This document shows, piece after piece, positions 57,662-62,905 of a DNA stretch of 64,000 nt. This stretch comes from Thiobacillus sp. Lineage in GTDB: Bacteria > Pseudomonadota > Gammaproteobacteria > Burkholderiales > Thiobacillaceae. The stretch is from the NCBI GenBank assembly GCA_024709165.1, contig JANJXF010000077.1, positions 1 to 64,000 of the forward strand, given 5' to 3'. The notes below the pieces were generated by a model, which saw nothing but the letters and a program-made list of their open reading frames with translations, had not been told where the DNA came from and searched no databases. Made by a program: the position numbers and the translations under genes. Positions within the stretch are counted from its first letter, which is position 1, and every line of letters starts with the position of its first letter.

Positions 57662-58437
57662 GAATCGTCATCGGCCTCGAATATCGGGGGCAGGGGTTTT
57701 GCGGCTGGCAGTCGCAGCCGCAGCGCTGCGGCGTGCAGGACGCCCTGGAAGCCGCGGTCGGCGCCATTGCCGGCATGAAAACGACGGTCACCGCCGCCGG
57801 GCGTACCGATACCGGCGTGCATGCTGCCCTGCAGGTCGCGCACTTCGACGTGTCGGTGGAGCGTCCGCTCACCGCGTGGGTACGCGGGGTCAACAGCCAT
57901 CTGCCCGAAGGCGTGGCGGTGCTGTGGGCGCGCGAAACGGCCGCGTCCTTTCATGCGCGCTTTGCCGCCATCCAGCGCGGCTATCGCTATGTGCTGCTCA
58001 ATCATCCGGTGCGCCCCGGTCTCAATGCAGGCCTCGTCGGCTGGCATCACCGCCCGCTCGACGCCGACGCGATGAAGCGCGCGGCGCTGCATCTTATCGG
58101 CCGGCACGACTTTTCTGCCTTCCGTGCCGCCGAATGTCAGGCGAAATCTCCGGTCAAGGAACTGCGTCGCGCGCATGTCGAACGGCGCGGCGACTATCTT
58201 CTGTGCGACTTCCAGGCCGATGGTTTTCTGCACCACATGGTGCGCAACATCATGGGCAGCCTAGTCCAGATCGGCGCCGGCGTGCAAGACGGCGAGTGGC
58301 TGGGCGAACTCCTGGCGAGCCGCGACCGCACCCGCGCGGCGCCGACCTTCGATGCCGCCGGGCTCTATCTCACCCATATCCGGTATCCTGCGCACTTTGC
58401 CCTGCCGGAGACCTCCGACCGATGGCTGTTCGCGTAA
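57658..58437 (+). CDS. truA: tRNA pseudouridine(38-40) synthase
   Basis: TruA makes pseudouridine at positions 38-40 of tRNA anticodon arms. The 259-residue protein starts [20 protein letters not shown]. The catalytic Asp is in [19 protein letters not shown] (about 42-60), and a [15 protein letters not shown] segment follows. The ATG overlaps the preceding gene's stop as ATGA. trpF starts inside the last codons, overlapping by 16 bases. Confidence 0.96.
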
Positions 58438-59038
58438 AAATCTGCGGCATCACCCGTCTGGCGGACCTGCGCGCCGCCTGCGACGCCGGTGCCGACGCGC
58501 TCGGCTTCGTGTTCTACGACAAGAGCCCGCGCCACGTGTCCATCCAAACTGCGGCTGCTCTGCTGCGCGAGCTGCCGCCCTTCGTGCAGTCGGTGGGACT
58601 GTTCGTCAACGCCGATCCCGCCTTCGTCGCGTCGGTGCTGAACGTCGTGCCGCTCGACCTGTTGCAATTCCACGGTGACGAGACGCCGGCCGGCTGTGCG
58701 CGTTATGGCCGGCCCTGGATCAAGGCGGTTCGCGTCAGTGCCACGACGGATTTGCTAAAATACGCGGCTGACTTCGCGGGCGCCCGTGGTCTGCTGCTCG
58801 ATGCCTTCGTGCCCGGTGTGCCGGGCGGCACCGGCGAACGCTTCGACTGGCGCCTGATCCCGCCGGACCTGCCGCTTCCGATCGTGCTTTCGGGTGGGCT
58901 CGATCCCGGCAACGTCGTCGAGGCGGTGCGCACGGTGCGGCCGTGGGCGGTCGACGTCTCCTCCGGCGTGGAGGCCGCGAAGGGCATCAAGGACGCGCAG
59001 CGCATTGCGCGATTCATTGCGAACGCGAAAGAAGCATC

Positions 59039-59042
<4 letters not shown>
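58422..59042 (+). CDS. trpF: Phosphoribosylanthranilate isomerase
   Basis: TrpF converts phosphoribosylanthranilate to its carboxyphenylamino-deoxyribulose form in tryptophan synthesis. The 206-residue TIM barrel starts [20 protein letters not shown] with the catalytic Cys, then [30 protein letters not shown], and the phosphate site [15 protein letters not shown] and [10 protein letters not shown]. It overlaps truA by 16 bases and trpB by 4 (ATGA), so translation is strongly coupled. Confidence 0.97.
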
Positions 59043-60238
<1,196 letters not shown>

Positions 60239-60240
60239 AT

Positions 60241-61149
60241 ATGGCGATTCCGGATTTTCAAAGCATCTTCCTGCCGCTTCTCAAGGCATGTGCGGATGGT
60301 CAGGAACACACCAAGCAGGAGTTGTTGCCTCTGCTGGCAAAACAGTTCGGCTTGAGTGACGGGGATCTTGCAGTCAAGCTTGCCAGCGGCAAGCAGGGGA
60401 TGTTCGATAACCGGGTGGGATGGGCAAAGAGTTATCTGAAGCAGGCTGGGTTGCTTGAGAACTTGCGTCGCGGTGTTTTCAAGATTACTGCGCGTGGGCT
60501 GCAGGTGTTGAATGAGAACCCCCAGCCCTTGAATGTCAGGTACCTCAAACGCTTTCCCGAATTTGTGGTTTTCAATGCCGGCAAACCCAAAGATGAGAGC
60601 AAACTTGCCGAATCCATTTCGGCAAACCAGGAAACCCCCGACGAACTTATTGCCGCTGGCTACAGGCAATTGCGTGAGGCGCTTGCGATTGAATTACTGG
60701 AGCGAATCCGAAGTGTCAGTGCCTGGCAGTTTGAAGAATTGGTCGTCGAACTGCTGCTTAAGATGGGTTATGGCGGTACGCAGGAAGATGCAGGGCGCGT
60801 CGTCGGGAAAAGTGGTGATGGTGGTATTGACGGCATCATCAATGAGGACCGGCTCGGCCTGGATGTGATCTACATTCAAGCCAAGCGATGGGAGGCAGAT
60901 GTGGGCCGCCCTGAAATCCAGAAATTTGTCGGTGCGCTGGCTGGAAACAAGGCTAACAAAGGTGTATTCATTACCAGTGCGGGCTTCTCAAAAGGCGCGA
61001 CCGAGTATGCGTCACAAGTGAATCACAGGGTTGTTCTGATCGATGGCCAGACGCTGGCAGAACTGATGATTGACCACGATCTGGGTGTCTCCACCAAGGA
61101 TGTCTATACAGTGAAACGCTTGGACACCGATTATTTTGAAGAAGACTGA
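60241..61149 (+). CDS. Mrr-type restriction endonuclease inserted in the trp operon
   Basis: The 302-residue protein has an Mrr N-terminal winged-helix-like region (about 1-95, with FDNRVGWAKSYLKQAGLLE) and a C-terminal PD-(D/E)xK nuclease domain (about 160-270). The catalytic residues fit E166/E167, D197 in SGDGGIDGII and Q213-x-K215 in YIQAKRWE. Mrr enzymes cut methylated DNA as type IV restriction systems. Base composition is clearly poorer in GC than the flanking trp genes, suggesting horizontal acquisition. It starts 2 bases after trpB and ends 3 bases before trpA, so it has been fitted into the operon without scar and must be cotranscribed with it. Confidence 0.92.
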   Translation: MAIPDFQSIFLPLLKACADGQEHTKQELLPLLAKQFGLSDGDLAVKLASGKQGMFDNRVGWAKSYLKQAGLLENLRRGVFKITARGLQVLNENPQPLNVRYLKRFPEFVVFNAGKPKDESKLAESISANQETPDELIAAGYRQLREALAIELLERIRSVSAWQFEELVVELLLKMGYGGTQEDAGRVVGKSGDGGIDGIINEDRLGLDVIYIQAKRWEADVGRPEIQKFVGALAGNKANKGVFITSAGFSKGATEYASQVNHRVVLIDGQTLAELMIDHDLGVSTKDVYTVKRLDTDYFEED

Positions 61150-61152
61150 ACC

Positions 61153-61959
61153 ATGAGCCGCATCGGCCCCACCTTCGCCGCGCTGAAAGCGCAAAACAAG
61201 AAAGCCCTGATTCCCTTCATTACCGCCGGGGATCCCGGCAAGGGCATGACCGTGCCGCTGATGCACGCACTGGTGGAAGCCGGCGTGGACATCATCGAGC
61301 TGGGGGTGCCGTTTTCCGACCCGATGGCGGATGGGCCGGTAATTCAGCGTGCGTCGGAGCGGGCGCTGGCGAACAAGGTGGGGTTGAAGGACGTCTTGGG
61401 CATGGTCGCCGAATTCCGCAAGGCCAATGCCGCCACGCCAGTGGTGCTGATGGGCTATGCGAATCCGGTGGAACGCATGGGCTATGAAAATTTCGCCCAG
61501 GCGGCGAAGGCAGCCGGAGTGGATGGCGTGCTGACGGTGGACATTCCGCCGGAAGAGGCGGCCGGTATCGCCGAGGCTTTCCGGACACATGAGATCGATC
61601 CGATCTTCCTCCTGTCGCCGACCACGCCGGAGTCGCGCATCGAGCAGGTGGCAGCGGTTGCCGGTGGTTTCATCTACTACGTGTCGCTGAAGGGCGTCAC
61701 CGGGTCGGCCAATCTCGATATCGACGAGGTGGCGCGCAAGATTGCCCTGGTGCGCAAGCATTGCGACCTGCCGGTGGGTGTCGGCTTCGGTATTCGTGAC
61801 GCGGAATCCGCGTGTGCGGTGGCGCGTGTCGCCGATGCCGTGGTGGTGGGCAGCCGCATCGTCGGCGAGATCGAGATCGCGCCGGAAGGCGGCTGTGTCG
61901 ACCGCGTGAAGTACCTGGTTGCAGAGTTGCGGCGCGGTGTGGACGCCGCAAGCAGATGA
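61153..61959 (+). CDS. trpA: Tryptophan synthase alpha chain
   Basis: TrpA cleaves indole-3-glycerol phosphate to indole for TrpB. The 268-residue TIM barrel has the conserved [16 protein letters not shown], the catalytic Glu in [31 protein letters not shown] with the second acid, and YVSLKGVTG and VGVGFGIRD phosphate sites. It follows mrr by 3 bases; initiation probably depends on coupling or on GAAGAAG at the end of mrr (61137-61143). Confidence 0.98.
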
Positions 61960-62038: not shown

Positions 62039-62905
62039 ATGAGCTGGTTCCAGAAAATTCTGCCACCGAAGATCAAGCGCCGGGCGGATGCGCGCAAGTC
62101 GATGCCGGAAGGCCTGTGGTCGAAATGTCCGGCGTGCAACGAGGTGCTGTATCGCGCCGACCTCGAGAGCAACCTTGAGGTATGCCCGAAGTGCGGACAT
62201 CATCATCGCATCGGCGCGCGTGCGCGCCTGGCCATGTTTCTCGACGCGGAGGGGCGGCACGAAATCGGCATGCACGTGACGCCGCTCGATCCGCTGAAAT
62301 TCAAGGACAGCAAGAAATATCCCGACCGCTTGAAGGAGGCGCAGGGCGCCACGTCGGAGGGCGACGCGCTGGTGGTGATCGGCGGCAGCGTGAGGGCGGT
62401 GCCGGTGGTCGCGGCGGCGTTCGAGTTCAAGTTCATGGGCGGTTCGATGGGTTCGGTGGTGGGCGAGCGCTTCGTGCAGGGCGTGGAGGAGGCGATCGGG
62501 TCGAATTCGGCCTTCGTGTGTTTCTCCGCCAGTGGCGGTGCGCGCATGCAGGAGGGGCTGTTCTCGTTGATGCAGATGGCCAAGACCTCGGCTGCGCTCA
62601 CCCAGTTGTCGCGTCACCGCCTGCCCTTCATCTCGGTGCTGACCGATCCCACCATGGGCGGGGTGTCGGCGAGCTTCGCCATGCTTGGTGATCTCGTCAT
62701 CGCCGAGCCCAATGCGCTGATCGGGTTCGCCGGTCCGCGTGTGATCGAGCAGACCGTGCGCGAGACTCTCCCGGAAGGGTTCCAGCGCGCCGAGTTCCTG
62801 CTCGACAAGGGGGCGGTCGATCGTATCGTCGACCGGCGCGAGATGCGCGACGAACTCGCCGCCACGCTGACGATGTTGATGGGGCGGCCGGCACTGGCGG
62901 CCTAA
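62039..62905 (+). CDS. accD: Acetyl-CoA carboxylase carboxyltransferase subunit beta
   Basis: AccD with AccA transfers carboxyl from biotin to acetyl-CoA, giving malonyl-CoA. The 288-residue protein starts [15 protein letters not shown], then the zinc ribbon [16 protein letters not shown] and [11 protein letters not shown] with four cysteines. [47 protein letters not shown] and [16 protein letters not shown] follow. AGGGA lies 8 bases before the ATG. The trpA-accD-folC order is widely conserved. Confidence 0.97.

Follow-up and report, generated by a model that had tools for sequence, protein, structure and literature searches.

The mrr gene within the trp operon

This analysis revealed that the two tryptophan synthase genes are separated by an Mrr-type (type IV) restriction endonuclease gene, mrr, in the window, by which we mean the whole 64,000-nucleotide stretch of Thiobacillus sp. 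DNA that was analysed. All features described here lie on the forward strand. Upstream, trpF (58431..59042, from the ORF list, with an approximate start codon), which encodes phosphoribosylanthranilate isomerase, overlaps trpB by 4 nt. The beta subunit gene trpB (59039..60238, 399 aa; TIGR00263, 640 bits) is followed by a 2-nt gap (60239..60240), by mrr (60241..61149) and by the alpha subunit gene trpA (61153..61959, 268 aa; TIGR00262, 250 bits). The next gene in the conserved order is accD (62039..62905, taken from the ORF list and named from gene order and sequence knowledge). The last ~44 nt of trpB (60194..60238), delimited by tail-copy comparison, are present once in the window and are duplicated 3' of inserted modules in relatives. 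The 3' end of mrr together with the 3-nt spacer at 61150-61152, CGCTTGGACACCGATTATTTTGAAGAAGACTGAACC (61117..61152), doubles as the trpA leader, and a sequence resembling it precedes trpA also in relatives without mrr.

The trpB-mrr-trpA layout is not an artefact of a contig end, since it recurs in other genomes, one of them that of the isolate Thiobacillus denitrificans RG. From trpB to trpA, the coding strand showed no promoter-like or terminator-like match. Together with the spacing of 2 and 3 nt, this makes read-through from the trp genes likely and cotranscription of mrr with them plausible.

The mrr gene, identified from the ORF list, Pfam, PADLOC and an alignment with EcoKMrr of E. coli K-12, is an intact reading frame of 302 codons with an ATG start and a TGA stop, and its GC content is 0.53 versus 0.64-0.67 in the flanking DNA. 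Its product comprises a winged-helix-type Mrr_N domain, presumed to recognise DNA (residues 6-92, 60256..60516; PF14338, E 5.2e-30), and a PD-(D/E)xK nuclease domain, Mrr_cat (residues 157-276, 60709..61068; PF04471, E 1.2e-37). The PADLOC model mREase_IV covers the whole protein (E 5e-89). The catalytic residues D203 (60847-60849), Q213 (60877-60879) and K215 (60883-60885) form the D...QxK variant of the PD-(D/E)xK site and do not vary across 25 homologues. The Mrr domains, the nuclease site, the lower GC content and the two short gaps, all of which the initial annotation had read from the sequence, were thus confirmed. EcoKMrr (b4351), a type IV methyl-directed enzyme, aligns end to end with the window protein (39% identity over 314 columns) and has the same Mrr_N and Mrr_cat architecture and the same D...QxK site. 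In contrast to the window gene, E. coli mrr adjoins hsdRMS and mcrBC rather than trp genes.

With regard to structure, the AlphaFold model of the protein (pLDDT 83, pTM 0.55) had MspJI as its best Foldseek match (E 7.7e-5), with a low whole-chain TM-score of 0.34. MspJI and AspBHI, the best restriction-enzyme PDB matches of the model at such low whole-chain scores, are modification-dependent nucleases that share the nuclease domain of Mrr. A sequence search of the PDB with the single protein as query returned no match, whereas a search with an Mrr profile retrieved the nuclease domains of LlaBIII and MspJI. No NCBIfam model matched the nuclease. The window mrr adds a member to a known family, and it probably encodes a functional type IV restriction nuclease which, by family precedent, would cut foreign-methylated DNA. 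Modification dependence is not fixed by similarity of the nuclease domain alone (PMC3874153).

Pairwise dN/dS values of mrr range from 0.03 to 0.15, indicating that selection preserves the gene for as long as it is present. At comparable dS, protein-level divergence of the N-terminal half (60241-60675) is ~2-10 times as fast as that of the C-terminal half (60676-61149); between the window and locus L064, dN is 0.140 in the N-terminal half versus 0.031 in the C-terminal half, and dS is 1.30 versus 1.04. Such a pattern is expected if recognition shifts while cleavage stays, and it may be a sign of changing DNA or methyl specificity.

Occupancy and cargo of the trpB-trpA junction

The trpB-trpA junction was compared in 117 genomes of the family to which the window belongs, 102 of which have both genes on one contig; most of the surveyed genomes are MAGs. 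The gap is at most 90 nt in 72 of these 102 genomes, 241 nt in one, and 540-3066 nt in 29, so that 29 junctions are filled, defined as more than 450 nt between trpB and trpA. The adjacent junctions never exceeded 300 nt (trpF-trpB, 0/44; trpA-accD, 0/51), while trpB-trpA did so in 21 of 50 of the same loci, a comparison to be read alongside the unselected 29/102, as 16 of these loci had been picked for carrying Mrr. Filled junctions were found in 10 of 107 genomes that belong to the same order but to other families, the order being taken as Burkholderiales from those families that have names, and in none of 58 from other gammaproteobacterial families, in which the largest gap, counted by hand, was ~235 nt.

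All 29 filled junctions of the family contain a restriction-modification (R-M), nuclease or methylase gene, a toxin-antitoxin (TA)-like pair, or both, as determined by reading the inserts and scanning representatives with Pfam. Mrr is present in 14 of these genomes, one copy being divergent. The insert of the window consists of mrr alone, with no methyltransferase domain between its trpB and trpA. Other cargo includes HicAB-type pairs, BrnT toxin genes, and DUF4160/DUF2442 and DUF4258/DUF2283 pairs, which we take to be TA-like from their arrangement and from general knowledge. An apparently complete R-M pair, a BglII-type nuclease with an MT-A70 adenine methylase, occupies the junction of G087 (locus L076, G087:C169), and a D12 adenine methylase with a winged-helix protein that of G089. 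G005 (L080, G005:C228) carries HicAB, a copy of the trpB tail and then a DpnI-type (Dam-replacing) nuclease gene. HARE-HTH/GIY-YIG cargo was found in G033, T5orf172 in G021, and a PD-(D/E)xK protein with a HEPN/nucleotidyltransferase pair in G025. The largest insert, 3066 nt in G026 (L082, G026:C58), holds several TA-like genes and an HSDR_N protein. In mixed inserts the TA pair lies toward trpB and the nuclease toward trpA, the HEPN pair of G025 being the exception. Cargo in other families comprises HicAB-type pairs (f14, f35 and f37), HicAB with Mrr (f14), a DUF4160/DUF2442-like pair (f20), and, in two f31 genomes and one f10 genome, a DNA methylase whose motif is DPPYGLGKDYGNDSD. No recombinase or other mobility gene was recognised in the cargo ORFs that were read or in 20 cargo proteins scanned with Pfam.

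As is characteristic of defence hotspots, the same flanks are empty in some genomes and hold varied R-M or TA cargo in others, and trpB-trpA is occupied more often than the neighbouring junctions. These results support the view that the junction is a recurrent exchange site for restriction, methylation and toxin-antitoxin genes which leaves the operon unbroken. The initial annotation had proposed a recurrent site for DNA-modification genes, which the surveyed gaps bear out and extend to TA genes. It had also mentioned a methyltransferase gene between trpB and trpA in some other betaproteobacteria; this corresponds to BCAM0992 of B. cenocepacia, which its published account describes as an orphan adenine methyltransferase (GTWWAC) in that position (PMC7364216).

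Entry, loss and exchange of modules

Nine of 43 inserts carry an additional copy of the trpB 3' end. These copies are 21-107 nt long and reach the stop codon or close to it, and none of the preceding four 180-nt segments of trpB has a copy in any of the 43 inserts. Their breakpoints vary (-26, -44, -60 and -107), six copies starting at -43/-44. In loci with HicAB and Mrr, the order is trpB, HicA, HicB, a tail copy from -43/-44, and Mrr directly after the copied stop codon. Similarly, T. denitrificans RG (G054) carries a BrnT-type module, a 61-nt trpB tail copy (95% identical) and then Mrr. This order indicates that the nuclease is the older resident and that the TA module arrived later, inserting just after trpB and displacing the old tail downstream. 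The copies between modules in these nine inserts thus point to the trpB 3' end as the place where new genes enter.

Because the breakpoints differ and no recombinase was recognised, recombination that is anchored by homology and partly illegitimate is a better explanation than a site-specific enzyme. Were the trpB 3' end instead the attachment site of a site-specific recombinase supplied in trans, TA and R-M cassettes would bring their own substitute for the trpB tail, in the manner of islands that integrate at tRNA 3' ends. This would account for the confinement of the repeats to the last 107 nt of trpB, for the six copies that start at -43/-44, and for the position of the newer TA modules on the trpB side, an order resembling that of cassette arrays. 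We consider it unlikely, since the breakpoints are not uniform, 34 of the 43 inserts have no detectable tail copy, and neither the cargo ORFs read nor the 20 cargo proteins searched contain a recognised recombinase. The -44 point shared by many HicAB inserts could reflect a site-specific event or one ancestral event carried along, and is explicable by descent of a single HicAB-plus-tail unit.

Under homology-anchored entry, the incoming DNA would most likely be taken up from related bacteria, for instance by natural transformation. ComEC and DprA were found in the genome of the window, which is compatible with DNA uptake; both are widespread and thus neither specific to this route nor proof of competence.

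Copies of trpA were also observed. The 2471-nt insert of the Nitrosomonadales MAG RH-23may17-230 (L108) contains a 107-nt trpB tail copy, an Mrr gene and a ~62-nt copy of the trpA head, and looks as if a whole trpB-mrr-trpA fragment had been inserted. The insert of L082 (G026:C58) has at its middle a 42-nt stretch copied from the start of trpA (90-98% identity to trpA heads of the family), suggesting that insertions left trpA heads behind too.

Remnants of a deleted mrr were found in three genomes (G097, G018 and G265), with trpB and trpA intact. In the nearest relative, G097 (L194), the 45-nt spacer consists of the opening bases of mrr fused, out of frame, to its final ~34 nt. The Mrr C terminus is retained in G018 and G265, and the N terminus also in G265. 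In a flank scan, G097 matched the mrr 3' end and trpA start of the window at 96.7% over 122 nt. The remainder of its trpA is ~81-83% identical to that of the window, compared with 91-93% for trpB and accD (92% for accD in the flank scan), which suggests a separate recombination of trpA in this genome. Presence and absence at the site require 14 changes on the TrpB tree, and gene loss at the junction is frequent. The description of the insertion as scarless therefore suits the window itself but not its relatives, which show trpB-tail duplications and deletion remnants.

We also considered whether most empty spacers are degraded mrr scars, and rejected this. Many of them do resemble the mrr 3' end significantly, but outside G097 the similarity is mostly confined to the last ~25 nt before trpA and may represent a shared trpA leader. 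A deletion direction was assigned for G097, G018 and G265 only.

The losses bear on why a nuclease should reside in this operon. The initial annotation offered two reasons: expression of the nuclease along with tryptophan synthesis would link restriction to nutritional state, or a polar effect on trpA would cause loss of mrr to be selected against. The 2- and 3-nt spacing, the lack of a match to a promoter of its own and the existence of an Mrr clade exclusive to the site are consistent with such coupling. Nevertheless, it appears improbable: most relatives have an empty site or unrelated cargo, mrr was lost with trpA left intact in the sister genome and others, and the slot holds differing restriction chemistries, the unrelated kinds of cargo arguing against a specific regulatory logic. 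The polarity argument in particular is contradicted by the three remnants beside intact trpA and by the 14 changes. Absence from relatives combined with decay to a pseudogene had been named as the pattern that would speak against the annotation. The gene is indeed absent from many relatives, but its low dN/dS values show that it is not a pseudogene.

A similarly improbable explanation is selfish retention, in which TA and R-M addiction modules landed by chance and survived best here, as large deletions would also remove trpA. The location within a biosynthetic operon fits this explanation, as does the presence of a TA-like and/or R-M or nuclease gene in every insert. However, neither Mrr alone nor an orphan methylase is a classical addiction module, clean small deletions are frequent, and the empty trpF-trpB and trpA-accD junctions are left unexplained.

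With regard to the history of the nuclease itself, a scan over 84,980 genomes listed 80 relatives of Mrr. The best 16 of the 80 (at least 60% identity) all adjoin trpB and/or trpA, 15 of them with both genes and the remaining one cut by a contig end, while none of the next 64 (at most 58%) adjoins either. In a tree of 53 Mrr proteins, 18 trp-linked sequences form one clade (SH-aLRT 100), the divergent copy of G022 standing apart. Among 252 sampled genomes from other families of the order, this Mrr was found at the trp junction in one (G249). The trp-linked lineage has thus long been tied to the slot, yet individual copies move. The TrpB proteins of the window, G097 and G065 form one clade (support 99), but G097 lacks Mrr and the Mrr of G065 belongs to another subclade; an AU test rejected the Mrr proteins of the window and G065 as sisters (p-AU 2e-8). 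Mrr alleles are therefore swapped between close relatives.

Transfer between families is probable rather than proven, and is suggested by a contrast in identities. The window and locus L103, which belongs to another family, share 87% identity in Mrr versus 78% in TrpB and 68% in TrpA, whereas several genomes of the same family as the window are 85-87% identical to it in TrpB but merely 62-63% in Mrr. An AU test did not reject a single clade of the eight Thiobacillus Mrr proteins (p 0.205), which keeps the transfer at this grade. That Mrr is a vertically inherited ancestral resident, differing among genomes through loss only, would accommodate the single trp-linked clade and the several proven losses but is highly improbable, as it conflicts with the TrpB tree, is already contradicted for the window and G065, and does not explain why Mrr is closer between families than TrpB.

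A plasmid or phage origin of the clade was considered and rejected: the best plasmid matches reached 52% identity and matches in the phage collection at most 39%, leaving the clade without a close mobile source. Besides its trp-linked Mrr gene, the genome G090 has another, divergent one (42% identity) that lies outside the trp operon (L100, G090:C64:4032-4958). In the Mrr gene of Betaproteobacteria RBG_16_58_11 (L112), which includes a stretch of Ns, the C-terminal half is a near-exact match to Thiobacillus; the gene is possibly a scaffolding chimera and was excluded from the careful tree.

Proposed mechanism and comparison with known systems

The reading that we favour, and consider probable, is that a functional Mrr nuclease is the current occupant of the trpB-trpA exchange site, reached by trpB-anchored recombination, expressed by trp read-through, and subject to swaps and frequent clean deletion. 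Conserved trpB (and trpA) sequence would anchor the recombination by which new modules are placed just after trpB. Where the right-hand join falls within the old trpB 3' end, a tail copy would stay between the old and the new module. Transcription of the incoming genes from the trp operon would make a promoter of their own unnecessary. Purifying selection would retain cargo for as long as it is useful. Whole alleles are exchanged among species, and cargo genes are deleted cleanly and often because the trpA leader survives. A broader proposal, which we regard as tentative, is that the trpB 3' end in Burkholderiales serves as an integrase-free acquisition port, at which defence and TA modules from other species would be received with a regenerated tail, stacked newest first and expressed from trp. 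If this were true, immunity genes would be held in a cassette array whose promoter is supplied by the operon of an essential pathway.

Most descriptions of defence hotspots place them between operons and on integrase-bearing mobile elements. The trpB-trpA junction is a less familiar sort of hotspot: it lies within a biosynthetic operon, inside a two-gene enzyme module, receives small modules, is apparently integrase-free, with no recombinase recognised, and still carries readable fossils, in the form of trpB-tail repeats and deletion scars, of how genes came and went. Such fossils open to direct testing how chromosomal defence genes spread without mobility of their own. The slot is, in addition, an easy target in searches for new R-M and TA systems in Burkholderiales. 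A search of the open-access literature found no paper on trpB-trpA as a TA or defence hotspot or on Mrr in trp.

The site shares conserved flanks, variable occupancy and stacked defence systems with the defence hotspots and islands of E. coli, which have been described as integration sites of mobile elements (PMC10121019). Unlike these, it is flanked by the two subunit genes of one enzyme, holds one to six small genes, and shows no recognised integrase or mobile element. Directional stacking at one end and direct repeats of the target 3' end are likewise found in integron cassette arrays and in islands at gene 3' ends. In contrast to integron arrays, no integrase or recombination site was recognised in the trp inserts, and the junction points vary. 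BCAM0992 occupies the same slot as the window mrr and is likewise DNA-modification cargo, being a methylase rather than a nuclease. The consulted passages of the report on it treat it as one gene of one operon and not as the occupant of an exchange site (PMC7364216). The present survey explains this known but isolated Burkholderia trp-operon methylase as one occupant among many.
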